Shown here one piece after another: positions 3,007-28,936 of a stretch of DNA of 34,527 nucleotides (its first letter is position 1; every line of letters starts with the position of its first letter). The notes under the pieces are model-generated. The model was given only the letters and a program-made list of their open reading frames with translations, had not been told where the DNA came from and did no database searches. The position numbers and the translations under genes were made by a program. The stretch is from the IMG/VR virus record IMGVR_UViG_3300041403_000175, positions 1 through 34,527 of that record, one strand, 5' to 3'. This stretch comes from a virus.

Positions 3007-3182
3007 CCCCAAACCACAAAAAGCCGATGCACATTAAACGAAATCGGCTCAACCCGTTCAGCAAGAAAACCAGACTAGGACTAGCTGTAAAATCCTACGA
3101 AGCCCAGAACGACAAGAAGTCTGTGACGCTTGCAAACCCACCTTGGGTGTCAAAGACGAAGGCCGGAGACAGCATCCATTAG
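3003..3182 (+). CDS. small basic hypothetical protein
   Basis: A 59-residue reading frame starts with ATG overlapping the dCMP deaminase stop (ATGA), which suggests translational coupling and supports it as a real gene. The protein is rich in Lys, Arg and Asn (starts MTPNHKKPMHIKRNRLNPFS) with no membrane segment or Cys/His cluster. I do not recognise a family. Its last 33 bases overlap the 3' end of the integrase gene on the opposite strand (3150-3182), so the early operon and the integrase converge and overlap. The high positive charge would suit nucleic-acid binding, but that is speculation. Confidence 0.55.
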   Translation: MTPNHKKPMHIKRNRLNPFSKKTRLGLAVKSYEAQNDKKSVTLANPPWVSKTKAGDSIH

Positions 3183-4160
3183 GTGTCCCGGTGCAAGATG
3201 GGCGTACTGCTCTGTTACAGCTATTGAACTGTGGCCCGCCAGAGTTTGAACTGTTCGCAGCGGTACGCCCTGCATTACTAAATGACTTATGAATGTGTGG
3301 CGAAGCTCGTGTATTGTACCGTCTACACCAGCGCCCTCACAAGCTGCTTTGAAACGCACGTGCATAGTAGAAGCAGACATCTTGGGTAAGACACTACCGG
3401 TCTGCCCAAAAGCCCGCAGAGACACCAAGGCTCTCTCACATCCGGGCGAAATCGGTACATCCCTCCACTTTCTGTTTTTAGTACTGTGCTGCGCTGTCGA
3501 TAACACTCGAACGGCGTTCGGGAGCACGTTGCTCCACTGCAAAGCTCGGGCTTCGCCGGACCTGAGACCCGTGTTCGCCAAGAACCTCCAGACCGCTGCG
3601 TACTTCGGATCGGCTGCGTAAATCTGTTCTAGCTGCTCAGATGTGAAGAACTTGCGCGGGTTGGCCTCCATGATCTGAAGTGGCTTTACTCCACGTATTG
3701 GACTGACCGGAATAACACCCCAGTCTACGGCCTTGTTCACGGCTGCTTTCAGTATTTTCAATTCTAAATTCACAGTGGTTCGTCGCCGCTGCCGCCCAGT
3801 CCTCTCGGATATTTCTTTGGCTCTGCCGTGCTTCCAGCGATCCACCAAGTGTGGGTCCAAGCTGGCCAAGCGGTGCTTGCCAAACTCCGGAATGAAAACC
3901 CTGTCGAACAGGCTGCGGCGCTTTTTGAACAAGCTGGGGTTCTCCCCCTCGTACCACGACAGGTAATCCTCCACGAACTCCCCAAACGTACAGTTGGCTC
4001 TGGCCACAGTCACGCCGCCGGTGTGCAACTCCAGCTCTTTGGCTGCCTTAGCCGTTAGGGCTGTCTTCTTGTTCGAGGTGCGCAACGACTCATACTTCGG
4101 CACACCTTCTTCGTACCACTTGATCCAGTAGGTTTTCCCGCGCTTGTAGATGGTCGCCAC
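3150..4160 (-). CDS. int: tyrosine recombinase integrase
   Basis: A complete 336-residue phage integrase that would catalyse site-specific recombination between attP and the host attB. The catalytic set is present: Arg200 in TGLRSGEA, a Lys near 230, HELRH with His284 and Arg287, His310 in LAGHSS, and the nucleophile Tyr319 in TEQYAHL. The N-terminal residues 1-60 form a short arm-binding-like beta region (YKRGKTYWIKWYEEG), followed by a SAM-like core-binding domain at about 60-155. The start is GTG at 4160 with GGAGAA just upstream. The gene is transcribed leftwards out of a repeat-rich gap, probably attP, and runs tail to tail into the early operon with a 33-base overlap. No excisionase is recognised in the window. 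Confidence 0.95.
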   Translation of the reverse strand: MATIYKRGKTYWIKWYEEGVPKYESLRTSNKKTALTAKAAKELELHTGGVTVARANCTFGEFVEDYLSWYEGENPSLFKKRRSLFDRVFIPEFGKHRLASLDPHLVDRWKHGRAKEISERTGRQRRRTTVNLELKILKAAVNKAVDWGVIPVSPIRGVKPLQIMEANPRKFFTSEQLEQIYAADPKYAAVWRFLANTGLRSGEARALQWSNVLPNAVRVLSTAQHSTKNRKWRDVPISPGCERALVSLRAFGQTGSVLPKMSASTMHVRFKAACEGAGVDGTIHELRHTFISHLVMQGVPLRTVQTLAGHSSIAVTEQYAHLAPGHLMDAVSGLRL

Positions 4161-4439: not shown

Positions 4440-4473
4440 CGGCGGGTCGGGAGAACAACAACCGCCGTTTTTT
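4440..4473 (+). terminator. candidate plus-strand terminator, opposing the late terminator
   Basis: On the plus strand CGGCGG (4440-4445) can pair with CCGCCG (4462-4467) across a 16-base loop, followed directly by six T (4468-4473). The T run touches the stop codon of the giant gene. It would stop rightward transcripts from the attP gap from running antisense into the late region. The loop is longer than usual, so confidence is moderate. Confidence 0.45.
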
Positions 4474-7400
4474 AATACCCCATCATATCCTGAACGCGGC
4501 GCTCGCTCGTCGCTTGGCGGCGTGGCGCTCGCAAAAGGTTGGTCACTGGCTGCCTACGCAACGCGGACGGAGCGTTGTTGAAGAACGGGCGAACCCGGTC
4601 TTTGGCTTTCTGAAGGTCTCTCCACTCCTGCCGCAACTCAGCCATCTTTTCGCGGTCGCGGCTTCTGTTGGCTTGGACGTACTCACGGTTAAGCCTGCCG
4701 GTCTCTTTGGAGAACCACTGCTCCAACTCGTACTGCTGCCCACGCGTCCACTTGATCTTGTTGATCTCGGTGGATGGTAGATTGATGGCGTTGCTCAGAA
4801 GGTCGAACATATCGAACTCCCGTGGGTCTGCTACGACGTCGCCGTTGCGCAGCGTGTACCCGTCTTGAGAGTAGCGGTACGACTCCATAACAGAGCGTAT
4901 GCCTCGCGGTGCCGCATACTCTGCTGCGCGGAACGGCTCACCCTTGGACAAAAACTCCAGCATATTGCCAAAGTTCCTGACTGTGGACGCGGTGGGGCCG
5001 AGGCCAACGCTCGCCACAAAATTCAACATCCCATCGGGTGTAGCTTCGGGGCGCACGAAGTTGGAGTTGTACGGTTGAAAGATGTCCGACTGAGAGAGTT
5101 TGGTGGACATGTCCACACCAAAGAACGCCGGGACGCCACGGGCGATGAGATCGGCCATACCCTCATTGTCTGGGAACAGTTCTTCTCGCACCCAACGCTC
5201 TAGGTTCTCCGGTTCTTCTTCGTCGCCCGTCATGGACAGGAACGCCCACATCAAAAAGTTAGCGGCTGGGATACCGACAGCACCGGCCATGGCACCAGTG
5301 TAACCGAGCAGGAACGCCGAGGTTCTAGCCCCAGCGATTTTTGCTTCTCTGGACTCGCCACGGAACGCTTGCTTGAACGCCGAAGCGTGCAACCACGCCA
5401 TCATAAGCTGGTACTTGCGGAACTGCGTAGTGACCCTTGGGAGATTGTCGATTAGGAGCGGAGCGTCCATCTTGGAAAAGTTACCCTGCGTGTCCTCGAC
5501 CACCGAGATCGCGTATTCCTCCGGCGACATGTTGTACAGGCGTCGAGCTTTCTGTGGGTTAGCCAGCGCAGCGTCATAGGCCGCTACCGCAGAAGAAATA
5601 CGGTTGTTGGCTTCGACAAACCGAGCGATCTGATACAGGCGGTGCGTCATGTTACGGAACGCGCCGGTAAAGTTGTTCAGAGACTCGTAGCCTGTGTCGA
5701 ACCGGTTTTCGATGTTGAGGTCTTCCTCCATACCCACATCCAGAAGCTGGCGCAGCTGAAGCGTTTTAAGAAGCTGACGGTACTTGGGCGGTGCCTTGTC
5801 CGTGTCGATGGTGATCTTGTTGTTCATGTCAACAAACCCCATGGTGGCTGCTGTACCCAGCTGGCGCATGAAGCTCGTGTCGATGACGCTGCTACCGACT
5901 TTGTACCCTCGGATCAGGCTGCCCCAGACTTTGTTGTGGTTGCCCATCTCGCCAGCGATCTTGCCCACCGAAATGATAGGCTGTGTGGCGTTCGTGATGT
6001 GGTAGCCGAGACTCGTGGTGAGCATGTAGACCGTGTTGAACGCCAGAATGTTATCGGCCAGTTTGGACAGCATACCCGTGCGGGAAGCCATCACGTTTTG
6101 GTACTTAGCCACGATGGTATTGTAGACCGGCGACAGAGCGGAGGGGCGCTTGCCTGCTTCTTTTCTCGCGTTAATCAACGCCTCGTTGATCTCAGCGCCG
6201 TGTTTCATCTGGGAAATCAGACGCGCTTGGGAGCGACCGTGCGACACGAACGACCGGATCATGTCTTTGTCGAAGCCAGCGCGGTTCATACGGCGGGCAC
6301 CGGACAGTCGAGCGTTGCTTTCTTCGAGTGACTGAAAGTAGAGGTCTTTGATGAGGGTGTCCAGCGAAGCCTTGGCGCGGGCATCCAGTCCGGCTTTTTC
6401 GTCAGCCTTCAGCGCAGCCATGACTTTCTGATAGACTTTCGGGCTGGCTTCTCGCGGCCCTGTCTGATCCTCAAACTTCTCGGACGCTTCTGCGTAGGCG
6501 TACTTTTTCCCGTTCTCCTTTGCGAACTTGTTTGCTGCACCCTGCGTGTCAAAGAAGCTGACGACGTAGTGCTGCGCGTCGGACTTCAGTTTCTCAACCT
6601 TGGCTTCATTGAGCTTGTTGTTCTGCGCACGGAAGTCGGCCTCGGCGTCCAGCAAGTCTTGTGATTTGAGGACAGCCACATAATCCCCGAAGCGTTTGAG
6701 CGGCGCGTATGGACCTTCCAGCTTGCTGTCGAAGGCGAACAGTTTGGACACGCCAAGTTGCTTGGCAATGTCGGACATCATCTGGCGAACATCCTCACCG
6801 TGCTGGAAGATGTCTTTGACGACCTGCTGTTCTTCCGGTGTGAGCCGGTCAAACTTCTGTTTCATAATCGGGTCGATCTTGACCTTCTTGCCCTTAATCT
6901 GCGGGTCGTAGCCCCACTTCTGGAAGAACGTGGATGTGGCCAAGAAGTCGTTAATCAGAGTTACGCGCTCTGGCGCAAACTCTCTGGCTCGGATAGCCAG
7001 TCCTTCGACCTTGCCGATGATCTCGTTGTAGGTCTGCTCGGCCTCCAGCATTTTGTCGTACCAAGTTTTGGCCGAAGGCATTTCATCCCGAACGTCGCGG
7101 ATGTAGCGAGATAGGAACTTTGTGGAGTCCAACGGTCGCTGGAAGATGGTTCGCGCATTACCCATGAATTGGGCTGTCTTGGGTCCACCGAAGTTCTGCT
7201 CCACCCAGTTCTGCTGGGCTTGAGCGTTTTGGCTTGAGCCTACGCCGAAGTTCGTGTCTCCACCCACTACGCGCGGGTTTTCCATGTAGCTGTGAGCTGC
7301 CCCTCGTGCGAGATCGAGAAAGTCTCTTGTGGTGAGAGACACCGTGCCACCGTTGTAGCGTTTCACGAATTTCGTCATGGCTGCTTTGGCCAAATCATAA

Positions 7401-10400
7401 ATTCGCTTGATGAACCGAAACGCCGGAGTTTTTGAATCTACTGTCGGATCAACGCCAGCGGAGACTGCTTCTTCTAGGAAGTAAGCAATATACTCAGCTC
7501 GCAAATCGCGGGCGTTATTGGGGTCTAGGGCGTCTTTGCTGATTGCGTAATTAACACGTTCACGGACTTCATCCGCGATCATGTGATGTAGTTCTGTTTG
7601 CCCCGCGTCACGTTCATCCCGCCACTTGATGATTTGCTCAAAGGCCGAAGTCTGAACATCCTCTGGGAGAATGTCGAAACCCATGTGACCGCCGAGTTCG
7701 TGCATCACGTTGGCGCGTTCCCTGCCGGGAATAATGTTGTCGGTGAAAAAGAACGCATAGAGTTTGCCATCTGTGCCGCGCTGCACAAGACCATACGGGT
7801 TTTGTGCACGGAGAACTCTGCCCAGCTGATCGGTGCTGAGAGGTACTTGAGAACCAAGAACCAAACCTATAAGGTCTCTAGGGCTTTTTACGATATGCAC
7901 GTTGGCGTCAGAGGCGTCTTTGACAAGCCACTTCATAGCGGCGCGTACACCATCCGCTTTGGCACCAGCGGCTTCGGCCTCAGCGTCTCCTATGGAGAAC
8001 CTTGGTTCTGCGTCACGTAGAACTTCGGGAAACTGAACGTAGTTCGTAACACCGTTCTCGGTGTAGTACGTCCCTTGGATACCCTGATCCAGAAGCGCCT
8101 TGACGTCGTTGATGTCGTTGAGATCGTACTCGTTGTATCCAGCCTTGTCGGTCTGCTCCACGAAGTTGGCTGTGTCGATCTCTGCGGAAATTGTTTCCGC
8201 ACCGCCGATCTCCACCGATGCACCTTCCGGAAGTGCAACATCCGTCTCACCGCCAATATAGCGGACAATCGCTGGACGGTCGTCAGCAGACAAGCCCGCC
8301 TCTCTGAGCTTACCTGTTAGCATGTTGCGGTCGTTGAGCGCGTCTCGGCGGTTAATCTCGACAGTGCCGTTTGGTCCGGTGATCGTGACCGGAGCAACAA
8401 TGCCTTCGTAGCCGCGAGCCGTTCCTTCGTCAGCAGACCAGTATTTACCGATGCCGTATGCGGCCTCACCTACCCCGTCACCTGTCCCTGTGGTGCGCTG
8501 CGCCCGAAACACTCGGGTCTTACCCCCCGGAGCAGCCTCATTCAGCTTAGCTTCCAGCTTCGCTTTATCCGCCTCGAAGTCGATGCTCGCTGGGTTTTTG
8601 AACGGGTTGAGGTTGTTGGTGAACGCCGGGTTGATCTTGTCCCACTGCTCTTGAGTCAGTGAACCAAGCCAGTCAGCCAGTTGAGCGGCTTCTGTGAGGT
8701 CGGGGTTACTCCACAGAGCGCTGTTGATACCTTCCTTTTCAGCGTAGCTTTCCTTGAACGACTTTTGGTTCCGCAACTCTTTGGGGGTTGGGTCCGCGTC
8801 ACTCATGGCCTTGGCGTCAGCCACCGCAGCGTCACGCATTTGACGCTGGGTCTGCGGCGCTACAATTTGTTTCTTTTTACGCGTCTCGACGACCGGAGTC
8901 TTCTTCGGCGTCTGGGTTACTTCTGTTTCTTGTCCCCTGACCGAGCTAGGCGCTCCATCGCTGGCGACAGCTTGTCCCCCAGCTCCAGTCTCTTTTTCAC
9001 TATTGGGCGCAGAGTCTCGTTTACTTGCTTCATCAGTTTGATCTCTTGCGCCCGAGTCATTCCCTTGCTTGGTTTCTTGTCCACTGGCTTTTTCCTTTGC
9101 TGGTGCGAAATCTCGCACAATCTCGTCGAACGCGCGTTCGATGTTGGTAAACCTGTCACTCCGACCGCGATCCTGCAAGAAGTCGATAACAGCCTCAGCC
9201 CAAGCCCGCTGTTCTGCCGGTGTCAGTTCGTTGAAGTCAGGGTCGTCCGTGGTTGAGAACCTGCGCCATTGGGCGGCAAAAGCCTCTCTCTGATCGTTTA
9301 CAACACGGTCAACGAAATCGACCTGAGCTGTATCACGTTGTTCTACCGCCGGAGACATAATCTCACTGTCGGTATCTGCGGCGGACGTGTCTTCTGTATA
9401 GAACGCCTCCAGCTGGGCGTCGGTCATGCCAGCTTTAACGAACTGCTTGATCTCGTTCTTCTGCGCAGAAGTTAGCGAGTCGCTGGGGCGAACTTCACTC
9501 TTTTTCTGGCCTTCCTTGACCTTCGGCAGTGGCTTACCGGTGCGCAAATGTTCAGCGTACTGTCGGACGCCAGCTATGTTTCGCGTAGAAGTAAGTTCAG
9601 ACTCGTTGGCGATGGTGCTCTTGTTGGCAGAGTCCACGATTGTCATGTTCGCCGCGTCACCAGCAACATCAGCGTTATCCAGAGCATCAAACATGTTGGC
9701 TTCATCGAGGTCAGCGGCTGCGGCTGCGGCGTCTGCCGCGTTATCTACAGCGTCGATGTCACCTAGTAGTCCTGCGGCGTCTGTGTCTGCGGCTTCGGAA
9801 ACCACCAGATCGGCGCGGTCACGGCGGACCGTGTTAATAGCACCGAGTGCCCCTACCATCTGCTCGGGGGTTACTCCTTGGACTTCTGCGATTTTCTTGA
9901 TCGCGCGAGAAATATAGCCGTTTACCGCCTTGGTTGCGTTCTCACCCTTGAGTCCGGCGACCTTGGCGATCTCGCTGTTGATGTAGTTGCCGGACTGATC
10001 CACCACCGTGCTGTCTGTGCCAGCAGTGTAGTTATCCCGCAGAACTCTCCATACTTTGGCTTCGTTGCCTTTCAGTTTCGCTTTGGCCTCAACAACCGGA
10101 GAGAACAGCTGACTCACTAGACGTGCTGACGCGCTTTCGGCTTTGTTGGCTGTCTCGGCGTCACGGATTTCGGTCAGCGCCTTGGTGAGTTCATCCTTTT
10201 TTGGCGCTTCCTGTTGAGGCTCGCTGTTCGGCTTCTTCGCGTCGATGATGGCTTTGACATCCGCCAGCTTCATCTTGGTGTTGTTGAGTGCATCCTTGAC
10301 GTCTTTGTATTCCGTGTCGTTTTCCAGAGCGTCTTTGCCGAACGCAGCTTCGGCGTCAGCTCGTAACTCAGAGCGTTTGAGTATAGTCTTTTTAGCCTTA

Positions 10401-12925
10401 ATCTCAGCCTCTGGGATTGCCTTGACATCCAGAGCGACACGATTTGCCTTGGCTTCTTCCGCCTCAGCCTTAGCAATGATTTCCTCACGCACCGCTTCCT
10501 CAAGCAGCGTTTCGATGCGAGGTTTCTTGCCTTCGCCGCGAGAATACAGGTTTGCGGATTTCTCCACGCCCTGAGACAGCGACGGGTGGTTGATCTCCCA
10601 ATCTGGGCCGAGCTGTTCTTCAATCGTCTGACGCCACTGCTCTTTCTTGGTGAGCTTTTTGGGTTTCGCCGGAGCCTCTTTGGTCGGGGCTGCTTCGGTC
10701 GCAGTCTCTTGTGCTGGGGCTGCTTCCGGCTGCACGTTGTTTTGTGCCGCTTTAGGCGTCGGTGCGGGCTTCTTGGCTTTAGGTGCAGCGTTGGGCTTTT
10801 TGGTTTGCTTCGGTGTAGTGTATTTCGCAACCAGTGTGCTCAGCGCAGCAGAGCGGGCTTCTGGCTCCATGGCGGCAGCAACAGTAATCTCGTTGGCCAG
10901 ATTTTCACGAGCGGCCTGATCCAGTGTGACGCCACGGGCTTCGATGATTTCGACGGCAATATCCACAGGTGTGCGCGGCGCAGCCGGTACTGTTTCGGTT
11001 GCGGTGCTTTCGGCAGCGGAAGTGTCAGTTTCAGATTTGGCAGCCTCGGCAGCGGTAGCTTCAGCCAAACCTGCTGATGTGTTAGCAGGTTGTGCCTCTG
11101 CTTCGGGTGTGGGTGTGGCTTCTGCTGTGAACGGAGGTGGCGGTGGTGGTGGGGCTAGACCGACCTCGTTCAAGTACCTCAGTTTTTCTTCGCGAGGTAG
11201 TGCGTTGTACTCGGCATACGACAATTCGCCGGTGAACGGCGCACCGACTTGCGTGTCAGCTGCCGCTTCGGGTGCGGGTGCTGCTTCGGGTGCGGGTGCT
11301 GCTTCGGGTGCGGGTGCTGCTTCGGGTGCGGGTGTTGGCGTCGGGTTAAGGGACTGCTCCAACTCTTGCATTTTGGCTGCGTGAGCATCCAGTGTAGCGA
11401 TGTATTCCGCACGCGCAGCGTCCCGGTCGCTGGCAGGAATAAACGCCTTCAAGAAGTCATTGGCGGCTTTCTTCTGCTCCGCATCGTTGGCAGGGTAGAT
11501 GTCGTTCTCCAGACGCCACTCACGGAACTCGGCTCCGATTTCGGTGTTAGGGTCGAGAACCTGCTGCGCCCGCGTGGCGGTGCGCTGCTTGATGAAGTCA
11601 GCCTCCGGCATGAAGGTCCGGGCATACTTGTCTCGGTTCTCTTTGGCGGCCCGAACTTCGGCGTCCACCTTAGCTTTTTCGGCCTGAGCGGCTGCATCCG
11701 CCTGCCTCCCCAGAGCAGCGTTTTCTCGGGCCACCTCGTCCGCTGTTTCTGCATCCAAGTCTGTGCCTGACTCAGAGGGTTTGTTTCCGACTACGGCCCC
11801 AGCGATTTCTGTAGACCCACGCATACCGGCACCAACAAGGCCACCCGTGGCACCAGCTTCAAGCAGCCGTCCTACCACCTCGCCGGGTGTGTATTTTGCT
11901 CCGGCTGCCCCGGCGGCACCCATGATAACGCCTTCTTGCGCCAGCTCTGTCCCGAACTCGACGACGGCTGTTTCGGCTACGTTGGCAACCGTTTGCGGCA
12001 CACCTTTGCTGACAAGCAGCTTTGATAGTCCTTTGCTGGCAGCAAGCTCCGCAAGTTCCCGGCGTCCCAACCCCTCAAGAGCTGAAGTAATACCCAACTG
12101 GTCGAGCGCACCCATGAGGCTGCCGCCACCCAGAGACAGGAGTACGCGTGTGGAGTCGGACACGTTTTCCGCGCCGACCTTGTTCAGAATTTCCTCGTTG
12201 ATCTCGCCGCCGTAAATGCTTGGGTTCAGAAGCGTTCTTAGTGGTCCGGCGGCGATGTTAGCTGCCATCTGGGGGCCGGAGGCAACCAAGTTCTCGCCCA
12301 TGACCTGAAGACCGCTGGCAAGACCGCGAATTTCAGTTACGCGTTTGGGTGCAAAGCCTTCGCGTTCATACTCGTCGGCTCTACGTCGAGCGGAAGTTTC
12401 AGCCTCTCCGGGGCCGAGTGCGGCCATCGCTGCTGCACGGTCTTCGCTGGAGACATCAGGTCCGCCAACAAGCCCCCTCGGCACACCGTCGCGTTCTGTA
12501 GCACGCTGCCGCGCCCAGTTTGCTGCCTTACCCAAAAGGTTGGCTTCGCCTTTGGAGTTGGTCAGAAACGTGGAGTCGAAAACATCCCCCGCCCGCTCCA
12601 ATGTTTGCCCCAAACCGCCACGCTCGGCGGCGATACCGGCTTCCCGTGTAAGCTGTTGGGAGTTCGCGATTGTTCTAGCTTCGGCCTGATCCCAGATTTT
12701 GGACATCCGGCCACGGTCGTTTGTGGGTGTCGGTGTTCTCGGCGTGTCGGTGTAGACGTTACCATAGGCGTCGGTGTATGTCTGCGCAGCCGTTGCACGG
12801 GCCTTGGCGCGATCAAGAGCCGCTTGCTGTTCCGGCGTAAAGCCTGAACCCTGTTCTTCTTCGTCTTGGTCGAAGTTGTAACCAACTCGGGCCAGTGCAG
12901 CTCTCTGAGCCTCAGTCCATGCCAT
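4472..12925 (-). CDS. giant polyvalent virion protein (PLxRFG family) with ADP-ribosyltransferase-like and zincin segments
   Basis: A 2817-residue protein encoded last in the late operon, expected to be packaged and injected with the DNA. Start: ATG 12925 with AAGGAAA upstream. Visible parts in order: a charged N-terminus; a Gly/Ala-rich hydrophobic segment at about 205-375; Ala/Pro/Glu low-complexity sequence with four PAPEA-type repeats at about 527-555; a long helical Ala/Lys/Glu region to about 1450; an ADP-ribosyltransferase-like segment (VFRAQR, YGIGKYWSADEG, then a YYTENGVTNYVQF end) at about 1470-1640; a zincin motif HELGGHMG starting at His1742 (HExxGH form); PLKRFG at 2075-2080; and a C-terminal helical, partly hydrophobic region. 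The PLxRFG motif and zincin are known in polyvalent proteins of podoviruses and conjugative elements, thought to protect incoming DNA or disarm the host. Comparable giant proteins occur in Bcep22-like phages. Existence and family are firm; the ADP-ribosyltransferase call is tentative. Confidence 0.88.
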   Translation of the reverse strand: MAWTEAQRAALARVGYNFDQDEEEQGSGFTPEQQAALDRAKARATAAQTYTDAYGNVYTDTPRTPTPTNDRGRMSKIWDQAEARTIANSQQLTREAGIAAERGGLGQTLERAGDVFDSTFLTNSKGEANLLGKAANWARQRATERDGVPRGLVGGPDVSSEDRAAAMAALGPGEAETSARRRADEYEREGFAPKRVTEIRGLASGLQVMGENLVASGPQMAANIAAGPLRTLLNPSIYGGEINEEILNKVGAENVSDSTRVLLSLGGGSLMGALDQLGITSALEGLGRRELAELAASKGLSKLLVSKGVPQTVANVAETAVVEFGTELAQEGVIMGAAGAAGAKYTPGEVVGRLLEAGATGGLVGAGMRGSTEIAGAVVGNKPSESGTDLDAETADEVARENAALGRQADAAAQAEKAKVDAEVRAAKENRDKYARTFMPEADFIKQRTATRAQQVLDPNTEIGAEFREWRLENDIYPANDAEQKKAANDFLKAFIPASDRDAARAEYIATLDAHAAKMQELEQSLNPTPTPAPEAAPAPEAAPAPEAAPAPEAAADTQVGAPFTGELSYAEYNALPREEKLRYLNEVGLAPPPPPPPFTAEATPTPEAEAQPANTSAGLAEATAAEAAKSETDTSAAESTATETVPAAPRTPVDIAVEIIEARGVTLDQAARENLANEITVAAAMEPEARSAALSTLVAKYTTPKQTKKPNAAPKAKKPAPTPKAAQNNVQPEAAPAQETATEAAPTKEAPAKPKKLTKKEQWRQTIEEQLGPDWEINHPSLSQGVEKSANLYSRGEGKKPRIETLLEEAVREEIIAKAEAEEAKANRVALDVKAIPEAEIKAKKTILKRSELRADAEAAFGKDALENDTEYKDVKDALNNTKMKLADVKAIIDAKKPNSEPQQEAPKKDELTKALTEIRDAETANKAESASARLVSQLFSPVVEAKAKLKGNEAKVWRVLRDNYTAGTDSTVVDQSGNYINSEIAKVAGLKGENATKAVNGYISRAIKKIAEVQGVTPEQMVGALGAINTVRRDRADLVVSEAADTDAAGLLGDIDAVDNAADAAAAAADLDEANMFDALDNADVAGDAANMTIVDSANKSTIANESELTSTRNIAGVRQYAEHLRTGKPLPKVKEGQKKSEVRPSDSLTSAQKNEIKQFVKAGMTDAQLEAFYTEDTSAADTDSEIMSPAVEQRDTAQVDFVDRVVNDQREAFAAQWRRFSTTDDPDFNELTPAEQRAWAEAVIDFLQDRGRSDRFTNIERAFDEIVRDFAPAKEKASGQETKQGNDSGARDQTDEASKRDSAPNSEKETGAGGQAVASDGAPSSVRGQETEVTQTPKKTPVVETRKKKQIVAPQTQRQMRDAAVADAKAMSDADPTPKELRNQKSFKESYAEKEGINSALWSNPDLTEAAQLADWLGSLTQEQWDKINPAFTNNLNPFKNPASIDFEADKAKLEAKLNEAAPGGKTRVFRAQRTTGTGDGVGEAAYGIGKYWSADEGTARGYEGIVAPVTITGPNGTVEINRRDALNDRNMLTGKLREAGLSADDRPAIVRYIGGETDVALPEGASVEIGGAETISAEIDTANFVEQTDKAGYNEYDLNDINDVKALLDQGIQGTYYTENGVTNYVQFPEVLRDAEPRFSIGDAEAEAAGAKADGVRAAMKWLVKDASDANVHIVKSPRDLIGLVLGSQVPLSTDQLGRVLRAQNPYGLVQRGTDGKLYAFFFTDNIIPGRERANVMHELGGHMGFDILPEDVQTSAFEQIIKWRDERDAGQTELHHMIADEVRERVNYAISKDALDPNNARDLRAEYIAYFLEEAVSAGVDPTVDSKTPAFRFIKRIYDLAKAAMTKFVKRYNGGTVSLTTRDFLDLARGAAHSYMENPRVVGGDTNFGVGSSQNAQAQQNWVEQNFGGPKTAQFMGNARTIFQRPLDSTKFLSRYIRDVRDEMPSAKTWYDKMLEAEQTYNEIIGKVEGLAIRAREFAPERVTLINDFLATSTFFQKWGYDPQIKGKKVKIDPIMKQKFDRLTPEEQQVVKDIFQHGEDVRQMMSDIAKQLGVSKLFAFDSKLEGPYAPLKRFGDYVAVLKSQDLLDAEADFRAQNNKLNEAKVEKLKSDAQHYVVSFFDTQGAANKFAKENGKKYAYAEASEKFEDQTGPREASPKVYQKVMAALKADEKAGLDARAKASLDTLIKDLYFQSLEESNARLSGARRMNRAGFDKDMIRSFVSHGRSQARLISQMKHGAEINEALINARKEAGKRPSALSPVYNTIVAKYQNVMASRTGMLSKLADNILAFNTVYMLTTSLGYHITNATQPIISVGKIAGEMGNHNKVWGSLIRGYKVGSSVIDTSFMRQLGTAATMGFVDMNNKITIDTDKAPPKYRQLLKTLQLRQLLDVGMEEDLNIENRFDTGYESLNNFTGAFRNMTHRLYQIARFVEANNRISSAVAAYDAALANPQKARRLYNMSPEEYAISVVEDTQGNFSKMDAPLLIDNLPRVTTQFRKYQLMMAWLHASAFKQAFRGESREAKIAGARTSAFLLGYTGAMAGAVGIPAANFLMWAFLSMTGDEEEPENLERWVREELFPDNEGMADLIARGVPAFFGVDMSTKLSQSDIFQPYNSNFVRPEATPDGMLNFVASVGLGPTASTVRNFGNMLEFLSKGEPFRAAEYAAPRGIRSVMESYRYSQDGYTLRNGDVVADPREFDMFDLLSNAINLPSTEINKIKWTRGQQYELEQWFSKETGRLNREYVQANRSRDREKMAELRQEWRDLQKAKDRVRPFFNNAPSALRRQPVTNLLRAPRRQATSERRVQDMMGY
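11265..11336. repeat. four 18-bp tandem repeats inside the giant gene
   Basis: The unit GCTTCGGGTGCGGGTGCT begins at 11265, 11283, 11301 and 11319, with one change in the last copy. It encodes the Ala-Pro-Glu linker of the giant protein at about residues 530-553. The near identity of the copies suggests recent slippage and a flexible spacer whose length may vary among relatives. Confidence 0.85.
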
Positions 12926-23429: not shown

Positions 23430-23735
23430 CTACTGCCCCTGCTCAATCCGCTCTAACCGTGCCTCAATTCGGCCCAGCACTTGCAGCACGGCGTTGTTGC
23501 GTTCTTCGGCGCGAGCAAGACTGCTTTCAACAACCCTAACTCGGCTCTCCAAGGCAGTCGCTTGGGTGCGCCTGTTCTCACTTTCCTGATCTAGACTTTT
23601 ACTTAAAGCTGAGATGTCTTTACTTGTTGCTGCGCTGCGTTCCGACAGGACACCCCACGCAACTGCAATAGTCGTCAGGAGAGCCGCCAAATTGATAATG
23701 CTCCCGAGGGATATGCTCTGGTCAACTCTCGGCAT
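23430..23735 (-). CDS. membrane-anchored coiled-coil protein, holin candidate
   Basis: A 101-residue protein with one membrane helix at about residues 10-30 (GSIINLAALLTTIAVAWGVL) and a cytoplasmic or periplasmic coiled coil to the end (SKSLDQESENRR, RVVESSLARAEERN, LGRIEARLERIEQ). It precedes the endolysin and spanins, so it is the best holin or lysis-regulator candidate. The single helix plus coiled coil is not a canonical class I or II holin, so the function is inferred from position. ATG overlaps the upstream stop as TGATG. Confidence 0.65.
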   Translation of the reverse strand: MPRVDQSISLGSIINLAALLTTIAVAWGVLSERSAATSKDISALSKSLDQESENRRTQATALESRVRVVESSLARAEERNNAVLQVLGRIEARLERIEQGQ

Positions 23736-24058
23736 CAGGCGATCTCACCGTCGATAGAGACGTCCAAGTACCCCTCGTTCGGGTACGTCTCAATTTTCCC
23801 GTCTGCGAATGTAACTTCGAACTCCACCTCATAGTCTCCGGTAGACGCTGTGTCGGAAGCCGCCCACTCGTATTTTACCGTGCCTGTCAGATCGTTCACG
23901 ATGGAGGCATTTCCGACAACTGGGGTTGATCCACGGCGCGAGCTTCGCATGTGGAACTTGACGGTTGCCCCCGTCAGAACAACTACAGACTTATCTGGGT
24001 GCTTCAGGTCGGCCACGAAGTCCGGCGACGTGTCACCCTGTTTGATTACAAACGCCAT
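23735..24058 (-). CDS. Ig-like (BppU N-terminal-like) virion protein
   Basis: A 107-residue all-beta protein: MAFVIKQGDTSPDFVADL, VVVLTGATVKFHMRS, then VKYEWAASDTASTGDYEVEFEVTF. This pattern (QGDTxP, GATVKFHM, GxYxVEFEVTFADG) is that of the Ig-like N-terminal domain of phage upper-baseplate (BppU) or fibre proteins. Start: ATG 24058 is preceded by CAGGAG at the right distance; an ATG at 24100 would add an unlikely basic peptide. The gene follows a 73-base gap with a dyad site, so it probably begins a transcript that includes the lysis genes. Confidence 0.7.
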   Translation of the reverse strand: MAFVIKQGDTSPDFVADLKHPDKSVVVLTGATVKFHMRSSRRGSTPVVGNASIVNDLTGTVKYEWAASDTASTGDYEVEFEVTFADGKIETYPNEGYLDVSIDGEIA

Positions 24059-24113
24059 GGCGTGCTCCTGAATGTTGCGCCATCCTCGCAAAAAGCGCAT
24101 GAGTTTTCAAGTG

Positions 24114-24131: not shown

Positions 24132-25241
24132 TTAAGCTGCGTTTTCCGACTTCACCACCTCAACCAAGTTCTCGGTCTCCCAGACAATAGCATAGTTTTT
24201 GCCCCCCGAACGGACCTCCACAGAGTTTGTTGTGTCGCGCACAGATACGCTATTCTTCGACCTGTTTGTTGTTATCGAGTTTTTGGATTGGCGGACTGTG
24301 GCAGTAGAAACACCATCCGAGACATCGTAAACCGCCTCTCTGCCAAACGCCGGGTTTATGTACGGGTTCCCTAGGTGTGGCGGGCCGTACAACACGTCAT
24401 CCGTGTAGAGTGGGACAAAAACCGTAATGTTGGTCCCGGAGACCTCTACCGGCAAAGTGTTTATGTTTGCCGCAACAAGAACATGTTTCTGGGCAAAAGG
24501 CGGGCTGCCCACCGTTGGTATCCCAAGAGCAACGGCAGCAGCGTCAAAGCGTACAGTAATGGTAGCTGTCGCCGCCGGTACGGACGGTGCTGCTGTCTGG
24601 ATCGACTGGGCAGTTAGGTTGTGCTCTTGAGCGAGGGCACCAGACCCGACGGATGGTGCTGCTGTCTGGATCGACTGGGCAGTTAGGTTGTGCTCTTGAG
24701 CGAGAGCACCGGACCCGATGGGTGGTGCTGCTGTCTGGATCGACTGGGCAGTTAGGTTATGCTCTTGAGCGAGAGTAGCGGACCCAAGGGATGGTGCCGC
24801 AGTCTGGATCGACTGGGCAGTTAGGTTATGTTCTTGAGCGAGAGTAGCGGACCCAAGGGATGGTGCTGCTGTCTGGATCGACTGTGCAGTAAGGCTGTGC
24901 TCTTGAGCGAGAGCAGCGGACCCAAGGGATGGTGCCGCAGTCTGGATCGACTGTGCAGTTAGGGTTTCATCCTCATAAGCTGTCGCCGCCGGTACGGACG
25001 GTGCTGCTGTCTGGATCGACTGGGCAGTAAGGCTGTGCTCTTGAGTGAGAGTAGCGGACCCAAGGGATGGTGCCGCAGTCTGGATCGACTGTGCAGTAAG
25101 GCTGTGCTCTTGAGCGAGAGCAGCGGACCCAAGGGATGGTGCCGCAGTCTGGATCGACTGTGCAGTAAGAGTGAGAACACCCGAGTCAACAACACCATCA
25201 TCCGCAAGCGGAGCGGCGGCTAATGGTGAAAATCCGAGCAT
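24132..25241 (-). CDS. tandem-repeat virion protein (nine 23-residue repeats)
   Basis: A 369-residue protein. After a short N-terminus (MLGFSPLAAAPLADDG, a start common among phage structural proteins) come nine copies of a 23-residue unit built on LTAQSIQTAAPSLGSA with an ALAQEH end (about residues 25-231); a degenerate tenth copy (VLVAANINTLPVEVSG) may follow near residue 250. The remainder to 369 is beta-rich with short NSI/NSV repeats (RQSKNSITTNRSKNSVSVRDTTNSVEV) that look like a beta-helix or stacked-strand rod. No membrane helix. Position among fibre proteins suggests a fibre or adhesin shaft. I do not recognise a family, and the function is inferred from repeats and context. Confidence 0.78.
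   Translation of the reverse strand: MLGFSPLAAAPLADDGVVDSGVLTLTAQSIQTAAPSLGSAALAQEHSLTAQSIQTAAPSLGSATLTQEHSLTAQSIQTAAPSVPAATAYEDETLTAQSIQTAAPSLGSAALAQEHSLTAQSIQTAAPSLGSATLAQEHNLTAQSIQTAAPSLGSATLAQEHNLTAQSIQTAAPPIGSGALAQEHNLTAQSIQTAAPSVGSGALAQEHNLTAQSIQTAAPSVPAATATITVRFDAAAVALGIPTVGSPPFAQKHVLVAANINTLPVEVSGTNITVFVPLYTDDVLYGPPHLGNPYINPAFGREAVYDVSDGVSTATVRQSKNSITTNRSKNSVSVRDTTNSVEVRSGGKNYAIVWETENLVEVVKSENAA
24549..25169. repeat. nine 69-bp tandem repeats within the virion repeat gene
   Basis: The marker GTCTGGATCGACTG recurs at 24595, 24664, 24733, 24802, 24871, 24940, 25009, 25078 and 25147, exactly 69 bp apart. Units are nearly identical except that copies 3 and 9 (counted from the protein N-terminus) share a distinct end (SVPAATA), which suggests that blocks, not just single units, were duplicated. 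Reading frame is kept since 69 is divisible by three. Confidence 0.95.
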
Positions 25242-25252
25242 GGCTTAGGCTC

Positions 25253-26020
25253 CTACGGCCAGTATTGATCGTCAGTGTAGTCAGCCGGTATTGGGTCCAT
25301 TTCACGCAACGCTTTAGCCGCGAAAATGATGGTCGTCTCTACTGCCGCCGCTGCTTGGCCGAAGGCAAAGGTGGTCGGCGCGTCCATTTGGATCAAAGAG
25401 TTGTCAGAGGCGATCCATGTAAATGGATTGGCACCACCATGCCAAAAGTAGTTTCCAGCAACCGCTCCTTGCCCCATTGCAAATCCCGCCAGTGCCGCAG
25501 CGCCAGTAATGCGCGACATTGACTTTGGATCACGTTGAAACATTACTCCCTGAAACTCAAAATCCATGACAAGCCGACGATCACGTTCTTCGTTTACTGC
25601 ATCGGCTGTTGGAAGGTTCTCTGCCGTAAACTCCATTTCGTATGGAGCATCTGGTGCGTTTGGCAATGTCAACCCAAACGGACTTGGCTGGTTTTCAATC
25701 TCCTTGAGTGCTGTGCGATACTCTTTAATCGCCAGAGGGACAGCTTGTCCCTTTCCAACAAAATCAACCACCCACTGATCAGATTGGGCCAGAAGACGAT
25801 CACGTTGGTTCTTTACAGCCTGCCACTTGATAGCCAATTCCGAAGGTGTAGGGTCTTCAACAGTCCATGCGTTATTGACCCAGATAGCTTTTTGGCCGGG
25901 AGCCAGTGTGGGTTTTTCAGGACAGATCACAAAGCCAAGAGTATTCAACTCAGCCTCTGACTTGCCCTTGTGTTCTTGGGGTAGCTTCTGAGGCTGTGCG
26001 CCCATGTATGAGACCAGCAT
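25253..26020 (-). CDS. DUF4376-containing tail/fibre-associated protein
   Basis: A 255-residue protein. Residues 60-130 resemble phage tail assembly chaperones (KNQRDRLLAQSDQWV, IKEYRTALKEIENQPSPF, TLPNAPDAPYE). Residues 140-250 match DUF4376: NEERDRRLVMDFEFQGVMFQRDPKSM, ITGAAALAGFAMGQ, NPFTWIASDNSLIQMDAPT, FAFGQAAAAVETTIIFAAKALRE. DUF4376 proteins occur with fibres in many phages and are thought to act in fibre assembly or attachment. The ATG shares a base with the upstream glycine-rich fibre stop (TAATG), so the pair is probably a fibre and its partner. Confidence 0.75.
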   Translation of the reverse strand: MLVSYMGAQPQKLPQEHKGKSEAELNTLGFVICPEKPTLAPGQKAIWVNNAWTVEDPTPSELAIKWQAVKNQRDRLLAQSDQWVVDFVGKGQAVPLAIKEYRTALKEIENQPSPFGLTLPNAPDAPYEMEFTAENLPTADAVNEERDRRLVMDFEFQGVMFQRDPKSMSRITGAAALAGFAMGQGAVAGNYFWHGGANPFTWIASDNSLIQMDAPTTFAFGQAAAAVETTIIFAAKALREMDPIPADYTDDQYWP

Positions 26021-27102
26021 TATACGTCTCCTGTGTTAGTAGATGGGAAAGCGCGTTCCGGACCCCAGATAATGCGGACTGCGCCGTGTGCGCCATTTAT
26101 GGATGCGTTAACACCGTCTGAGCCACCGGAGCCAGCGCCGTAAACTCCCGGAGAACCAGAATTAAATCCACCAGAGCCGTTGCTCCCGCTTGAACCTCCA
26201 CCACCACCAGAGCCATGGCTTGTTGTGCTACCGCCGCCGCCACCGCCGGAAACTCCCTCCCCTAAAAGGCCAACTCCGCCACCGCCACCAGCGCAATAAG
26301 AGTTATCTGAGCCGCCGCCACCGCCTCCTGCGCCACCAGTTCCAGCTAGTCCTGAATTCTTACCAGCCCCGCCTTTTCCGCCTGATCCGCTGTACCCTCC
26401 AGCGCCACCGCCCCCGCCGCCAGCTCCACCCCCGTCTCCTCCATTACCACCATTGCCGCCAAGTGGGTAGTAAGACCCGCCCGGACCTCCGGGGTCTGAG
26501 CCGGCAGTAGAGCCGCCACCCCCGCCGCCTCCATAAACAGTACCGGTGTTTATGAAATAGCTATCAGTTCCGTTTGATGTGGGCGGTTCTCCTGATGTGT
26601 CGCCGCCCTCTCCTACGACTACCGCATAACTTTGACCGGGAGTGACAGGAATTGAGTTGACGTAACCCAGACCGCCGCCGCCGCCGCCACCGCCGCCAGC
26701 GCTGTAATAACGGCCTGCACCGCCACCACCTACGCATACCACGTCAACTTGATAGACGTTGGCAGGACAAACCCATGTATGTGTGCCGGGTGCAGTGTAA
26801 AGTGCCTGCCCGCTATCGCTTGTCGGGTCCACTTGGCTCGTGAACGTCGAGATTACTTCCCAAGTGTCAATCTCTGGATAGTAAAGTTCCAAGCCATCCA
26901 ATGTGGTGTTGTAGAACAGCATTGGAGCCAGAGGAGATGCAGGACGCTCCGCAGACGTACCGCTCTCAATGTATTTGATCGCATCCAGCGTGTAAGTAAT
27001 CTCGCTGTCGATTGCCCACTTGGTTCCGTCCCACCTAAACGTAAAACCGTTTTCCGTGTGGGTGTCGTTGAGAGCCGGAGCGTTGGGGAAGTTGATAGCC
27101 AT
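26020..27102 (-). CDS. glycine-rich tail fibre/adhesin
   Basis: A 360-residue protein. Residues 1-90 carry a common phage fibre N-terminus (NGFTFRWDGTKWAI, LFYNTTLDGLELYYPEIDTWEVI). From about 95 there is a GTHTWVCPANVYQVDVVCVGGGGAG strand of the glycine-rich adhesin type, then long runs of Gly with Ser, Ala and Asn from about 125 to 335, and finally the conserved end GAVRIIWGPERAFPSTNT. Such glycine-rich tips in other phages fold as polyglycine-II bundles and bind receptors. The Gly blocks are interrupted by Tyr/Cys-bearing loops (SDNSYCAGG), likely the variable binding surface. It is followed directly by the DUF4376 protein. Strong family call; receptor unknown. Confidence 0.85.
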   Translation of the reverse strand: MAINFPNAPALNDTHTENGFTFRWDGTKWAIDSEITYTLDAIKYIESGTSAERPASPLAPMLFYNTTLDGLELYYPEIDTWEVISTFTSQVDPTSDSGQALYTAPGTHTWVCPANVYQVDVVCVGGGGAGRYYSAGGGGGGGGGLGYVNSIPVTPGQSYAVVVGEGGDTSGEPPTSNGTDSYFINTGTVYGGGGGGGSTAGSDPGGPGGSYYPLGGNGGNGGDGGGAGGGGGGAGGYSGSGGKGGAGKNSGLAGTGGAGGGGGGSDNSYCAGGGGGVGLLGEGVSGGGGGGSTTSHGSGGGGGSSGSNGSGGFNSGSPGVYGAGSGGSDGVNASINGAHGAVRIIWGPERAFPSTNTGDV

Positions 27103-28276: not shown

Positions 28277-28936
28277 TTATCCGAAAATGATTGCCATGGC
28301 GGTCGCATGAGCCGTGTTGCCCACAGCACCAGCCGGACCTTGAGCACCCTGTATGCCCTGTATGCCTTGGATACCTCGCAGCCCAATCGGGCCAGACAGA
28401 CTTACCCACTGAGAGCCATCAACGTCCGTGTAGTATCCGTAGAGAACCATCTGAGTGCTATCGACCCATAGATCACCTGCGCTTGGGGATACCGGAGCCG
28501 TGTCAGAGATAGCTATTGAAGCTCCTCCTCCTCCCCCTCCAGCACCAAGAGCTGCAATAGCCTGTGCTACTCTCTGAGCCGTCCAAATGCGTTCTGTTGT
28601 GGCTGTCCCGGCTTCGGCTTCCGCTTGGGGAACCACAGTAGGAAAGTCCGCCGCCAGCGCCGACACATAAATGACCGCATCGCCAGACAGGTTAATGGCT
28701 GCGCCTGCATTGCTACTTTCAGACGGTGTTCGACTAAGCGTTGTGCCGGTCGCCGTGTATACGCCCGTTCCGATTTCCCACGCGGTCCCGTCTTCGATCA
28801 CATACCGAACGGTATCGCCGTCCGCGACACCAGCGGCGGCGAAAGTCTGAAACCCGTCAGCCGCCGCGCCGAGCGTGATGGTCCCGGTGCCAGTGGTCGC
28901 GGTCGAGACCTTTGCGCGATTAACGAGTTTAGGCAT
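28277..28936 (-). CDS. collagen-like tail fibre protein
   Basis: A 219-residue fibre. Residues 1-100 form a conserved phage fibre domain (MPKLVNRAKVSTATTGTGTI, FAAAGVADGDTVRYVIEDGTAWEIGTGVYTA, TLSRTPSESS). About 100-135 is a helical linker ending in six Gly. About 140-180 is a small beta domain (SAGDLWVDSTQMVLYGYYTDVDGSQWVSLS). Then collagen-like Gly-X-Y triplets (GPIGLRGIQGIQGIQGAQG) run to residue 205 and a short end follows. The parts are typical of trimeric phage fibres or head fibres. The collagen block is short (about seven triplets) and its DNA shows short direct repeats, hinting at length variation. Confidence 0.82.
   Translation of the reverse strand: MPKLVNRAKVSTATTGTGTITLGAAADGFQTFAAAGVADGDTVRYVIEDGTAWEIGTGVYTATGTTLSRTPSESSNAGAAINLSGDAVIYVSALAADFPTVVPQAEAEAGTATTERIWTAQRVAQAIAALGAGGGGGGASIAISDTAPVSPSAGDLWVDSTQMVLYGYYTDVDGSQWVSLSGPIGLRGIQGIQGIQGAQGPAGAVGNTAHATAMAIIFG

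Follow-up and report, generated by a model that had tools for sequence, protein, structure and literature searches.

Tandem 69-bp units in a phage gene and the family of 23-residue repeat proteins around it: candidates for a length-variable rod in virion adhesion

The window, as we call the whole 34,527-nucleotide stretch of viral DNA analyzed here, contains a gene largely built of tandem 69-bp units (Table 1), which raises the questions of what such a protein might do and whether its number of units changes among related phages. Nine repeats of exact period had been reported by an earlier note at positions 24549 to 25169; the array is real and lies at 24552 to 25172 in the register of the protein, with every unit-to-unit step across the nine units being exactly 69 bp. 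TRF places an array with a period of 69, 8.5 copies, 85% matches, and a score of 786 at 24582-25166, and it also calls a period of 207 with a score of 867. The ordinary units have 57 to 67 of their 69 bases in common; as the 23-residue period also recurs in related proteins, a chance origin of the array can be dismissed. The count of nine stands for the near-identical units; two diverged units, recognized with the family profile, had gone uncounted and bring the array to 11 units in all. As the profile register begins one residue earlier, their span and unit 9 have 3 bases in common. A separate tandem repeat with a period of 18 (4.7 copies; consensus TGCTGCTTCGGGTGCGGG) is found at 11261-11346, within a 2,817-aa ORF (4472-12925).

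Table 1. Features of the repeat gene and of its neighborhood in the window
Feature	Positions	Strand	Details
Repeat-protein ORF (P0001)	24132..25241	(-)	369 aa
N-terminal leader	25173..25241	(-)	Residues 1-23; window form MLGFSPLAAAPLADD...; family form MLGFSPLASAPLADDG
Nine near-identical 69-bp units	24552..25172	(-)	Residues 24-230; TRF and unit alignment
Unit 1	25104-25172	(-)	
Unit 3	24966..25034	(-)	Odd end SVPAATAYEDE, EDE-type; unit alignment
Unit 9	24552-24620	(-)	
Two diverged units	24417..24554	(-)	Residues 230-275; same 23-aa period; family profile
C-terminal region	24135..24416	(-)	Residues 276-369; Asn-rich, short NSVxVR-type repeats
BppU_N-like gene, next after the repeat gene	23735..24058	(-)	107 aa from MAFVIK; ORF opens at 24100
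Tail assembly chaperone-like gene, preceding the repeat gene	25253..26020	(-)	Phage_tail_APC and DUF4376
Glycine-rich protein, same cassette	26020-27102		Pfam Gly_rich_2; PHROG 4474
Protein with collagen-like GIQGIQGIQG run	28277-28936		Fibre-type PHROG match

With the window protein as the sole query, a search of IMG/VR recovered one relative, L002. Searches with the neighboring genes yielded 79 and 5 loci, among which L005, L020, and L021 carry a related gene at the same place, and L087 stops just within a third close copy, whose start reads MFGFSPLAAAPLADDGVV. An alignment of six members, in turn, retrieved at least 279 relatives from IMG/VR, of which 80 were retained for analysis. Of the 91 BLAST-matched ORFs of the fetched loci among the matches listed, 88 have the leader motif in a relaxed form. 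In a set of 72 leader sequences, M1, G3, P6, and A8 of MLGFSPLASAPLADDG are invariant, and L2, F4, S5, L7, P11, L12, D14, and G16 are each conserved in at least 90%. This conservation is partly by construction, since one of the two search patterns consisted of the first nine leader residues and most of the leader sequences came through such a pattern; D14 and G16 fall outside it, and the leader is also seen in L002, L005, L020, L021, L087, and phage CRP-6, which were found through neighboring genes or tblastn. An iterated profile detected 979 units with the consensus HxLxAxxITTGxPxVGxxxIxQx among the matches listed, where 869 of about 905 spacings are exactly 23 residues and complete proteins possess 8 to 24 units. 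The window protein itself combines the leader and 11 exact 23-residue tandem units with a BppU_N-like gene downstream.

Outside environmental contigs, the sole credible match among 50,697 isolate phage records is gp57 of Roseobacter phage CRP-6. The best match in the bacterial genome collection is a 446-aa protein from a prophage-like region of Thalassovita litoralis with the same gene order, and this genome is the single match among the 394 of its family. No family in Pfam or PHROG covers the members tested, NCBIfam has none for the window protein, the sole protein run there, and in the literature searched we recognized no description of an MLGFSP-leader family with 23-aa repeats. The family is large, hitherto unnamed, and known near-exclusively from uncultivated phages. 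Its members show further variation in architecture: long forms of 851 aa (L142, 853-3408) have a long nonrepeat stretch, free of Pfam matches, inside the array, and in L149 (1978-2904), and likewise in L108, an alternative C terminus with WTEQ repeats replaces the Asn-rich end.

In the window, the gene order runs from a fibre cassette through the tail-chaperone-like gene, the repeat gene, and the BppU_N-like gene to lysis genes, with a CHAP-domain gene and a match to PHROG 511 (internal virion protein) lying further downstream. Among the matches listed, 47 of 58 relatives have a BppU_N-like gene next after the repeat gene, and the same neighbor is present in CRP-6 and in the Thalassovita prophage-like region. 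On the other side, the adjacent gene is not constant: a broad regular expression, which may miss members or catch chance matches, detected a tail-chaperone motif upstream in 31 of 69 of the matches listed, and a narrower pattern did so in 9 of 69. Comparison of the window with L002 shows a stretch of replaced genes, running from the end of the gene at 28277 to 25253; the repeat and BppU_N-like genes have been retained. Of the product encoded at 28277-28936, about 85 residues are conserved in L085, L086, and L088, with the remainder being different. BppU_N-like genes are also found in archaeal viruses; two nearby Methanoculleus virus genes were read and do not belong to the MLGFSP family, and the neighbor of the BppU_N-like gene in HRTV-25 is, judged from its annotation, a laminin G protein. 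At 3150-4160, the window has an ORF whose translation resembles tyrosine-type phage integrases, suggesting that the phage might be temperate.

The earlier suggestion that units are gained or lost whole, without loss of frame, is borne out by assembled contigs of relatives with similar flanks, whose genes differ by exactly 69, 138, or 483 bp. The genes of L020 and L021 are identical over 1,047 aligned bases and 138 bp apart in length; the difference is 69 bp in L133/L163 (97.2%), a pair in which the additional unit exactly duplicates its tandem neighbor, and likewise 69 bp in L110/L136 (91.3%) and L121/L152 (83.5%), 138 bp in L126/L155 (93.5%), and 483 bp in L142/L164 (84.6%). Collapse of identical units during assembly may account for the differences in L020/L021 and L133/L163. 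In several pairs, the extra units are merely 61 to 70% like any other unit of the same gene, which makes such a collapse improbable there. The length differences of other pairs are not multiples of 23 residues, as the leader and the C terminus vary too.

The description of the array as young, in contrast, is not upheld. The seven ordinary units of the window differ from each other with a pS of 0.231 and a pN of 0.058; this pS is close to that between the units of the window and those of L002 (0.242) and exceeds that of the gap-free C-terminal stretch of the window gene and L002, its closest relative (0.113). Hence, as a set, the units diverged before the window and L002 genes did, with some pairs, e.g., units 1 and 4 (67 of 69 bases), being closer than the set as a whole. 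The pS of the flanking genes between the window and L002 ranges from 0.07 to 0.50, which points to a mosaic ancestry, so that the age comparison holds locally, within the gene. At the level of sequence, the pN/pS of about 0.25 among the ordinary units shows the unit to be under purifying selection.

Units 3 and 9 do have the special common end that had been noted: they agree at every one of 51 successive bases, with ACTGCCCAG and ACAGCT at the two ends of this run; their last 12 bases differ (TATGAGGATGAA against ACCATTACTGTA). The accompanying idea of a single clean duplication of a multiunit block fares poorly, because units 1 and 7 (59/69) and units 2 and 8 (57/69) are too unlike to fit the copying of units 1-3 into 7-9 or the reverse. 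The terminal unit of L002 has the ending of unit 9 as well, and the EDE (EDET) ending of unit 3 represents a unit type occurring across the family. The match between the two copies therefore looks more like the outcome of patchwork recombination than of one block duplication.

Structure prediction yielded strands only, in a pattern repeating with each unit, for both the full-length protein (AlphaFold mean pLDDT of 48.9) and residues 1-253 with 72 sequences (mean pLDDT of 43.7). Searches of the PDB by Foldseek with these low-pLDDT models gave no significant match (best E value, 0.28), and the weak ones include many beta-helical proteins; given pLDDT values of 49 and 44, we set the fold searches aside as evidence for the fold. 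A profile match to an engineered OspA with 23-residue repeats in the PDB (E value, 0.001) may be explained by composition. No fibre or receptor-binding domain was found for the window protein in Pfam, PHROG, or NCBIfam. Other candidates were rejected: a leucine-rich repeat match (Pfam LRR_5; E value, 0.0021) is under its cutoff and, like the tblastn match OR338544, which reads as a BspA-type LRR protein, is an artifact of composition or repeats; a Prevotella record matched in the plasmid collection (23% identity, with 46% of the query aligned) is probably likewise artifactual.

What, then, could the protein do? The succession of fibre cassette, chaperone-like, repeat, BppU_N-like, and lysis genes favors a role in the virion adhesion apparatus as the most likely one; judged from gene order alone, the earlier reading of it as a virion protein, and perhaps a fibre shaft, is plausible. 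Taking these findings together, we lean, with somewhat better than even confidence, toward the proposal that the repeat protein is a length-variable accessory rod of the phage adhesion apparatus that changes by recombination of whole units. The conserved N-terminal leader would probably dock the protein on the particle, and the stacked 23-residue units might form a beta-rich rod, followed by a C-terminal end region that differs from relative to relative. Through unequal recombination among units of similar sequence, whole 69-bp units would be added or removed in frame, such that rod length would differ among relatives while purifying selection holds the unit sequence and the exact 23-residue period. 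On this proposal, the protein would be part of the virion, and its length might influence its reach or the host range.

A less probable but still appreciable alternative places the protein at or close to the virion as a decoration or an adaptor, compact or sheet-like in form and paired with the BppU_N-like neighbor, with the number of units being of minor functional importance. The linkage to the BppU_N-like gene (the 47 of 58 among the matches listed) is tighter than that to any fibre gene tested, the two genes stayed together between the window and L002 when the intervening ones were replaced, and the OspA profile match, if not due to composition, suggests that a flat sheet is possible; against this, 8 to 24 units with a strict period better suit an elongated, extensible part. 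The length variation could also be neutral recombination noise, with any number of units tolerated and no adaptive role. The same length recurs in many near relatives (L138, L140, L146, and L129 are all 286 aa), as might be the case under such neutrality, which we consider unlikely; the balance of silent and replacement differences shows the unit sequence itself to be constrained, though it does not bear on the number of units. A nonstructural gene whose product works inside the infected cell, and which lies next to tail and lysis genes by coincidence, would agree with the lack of a known virion domain in any of the members tested, but its placement in the late structural block is conserved across diverse contigs, and we regard such a role as highly improbable.

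Environmental viral contigs carry the family commonly and isolate phage records hardly at all, and none of the family libraries tested includes it. Its members form a natural series in which the proteins differ by whole units, and one of the carriers, CRP-6, is a cultured phage. More speculatively, and with considerable doubt, these proteins might be virion rods of tunable length that make up a widespread class not described so far; the phages bearing them would infect uncultivated hosts, probably for the most part Alphaproteobacteria, and phage populations would keep altering rod length, and hence reach or receptor access, by whole-unit recombination.

Several parallels are suggested by known proteins. 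The closest complete-gene relative, on IMG/VR contig 3300038701_000036 (L002/L088), encodes a 267-aa protein with the same unit core and terminal unit; it differs from the window protein in having six rather than nine near-identical units, a shorter C terminus, and another gene set upstream. CRP-6 gp57 (QBQ72781.1, a hypothetical protein) has a related N terminus (MFGTSPFAAATFA) and 23-residue units, but it is only 23% identical, and its own units are mutually diverged, often with two types alternating; the paper on CRP-6 contains no mention of mass spectrometry. A comparable plan, without obvious sequence similarity, is seen in EVB41_008 of Rhizobium phage RHph_TM3_14A (L179, 16420-16968), in which the N terminus FQSDAFQNDAFQ is followed by repeats of about 21 residues (LLSFSIVEGPDVPDFDVTSTT). 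Engineered Borrelia OspA with extra repeats (PDB 2fkj) has the 23-residue period in common with the window protein and differs in composition; the likeness is likely one of analogy rather than homology. In repeat-built fibre shafts such as the triple beta-spiral of adenovirus, strand-turn-strand units recur with a conserved Pro/Gly turn, and the number of units sets the length; any resemblance would lie in these features. The adenovirus unit has about 15 residues, as against 23 here.
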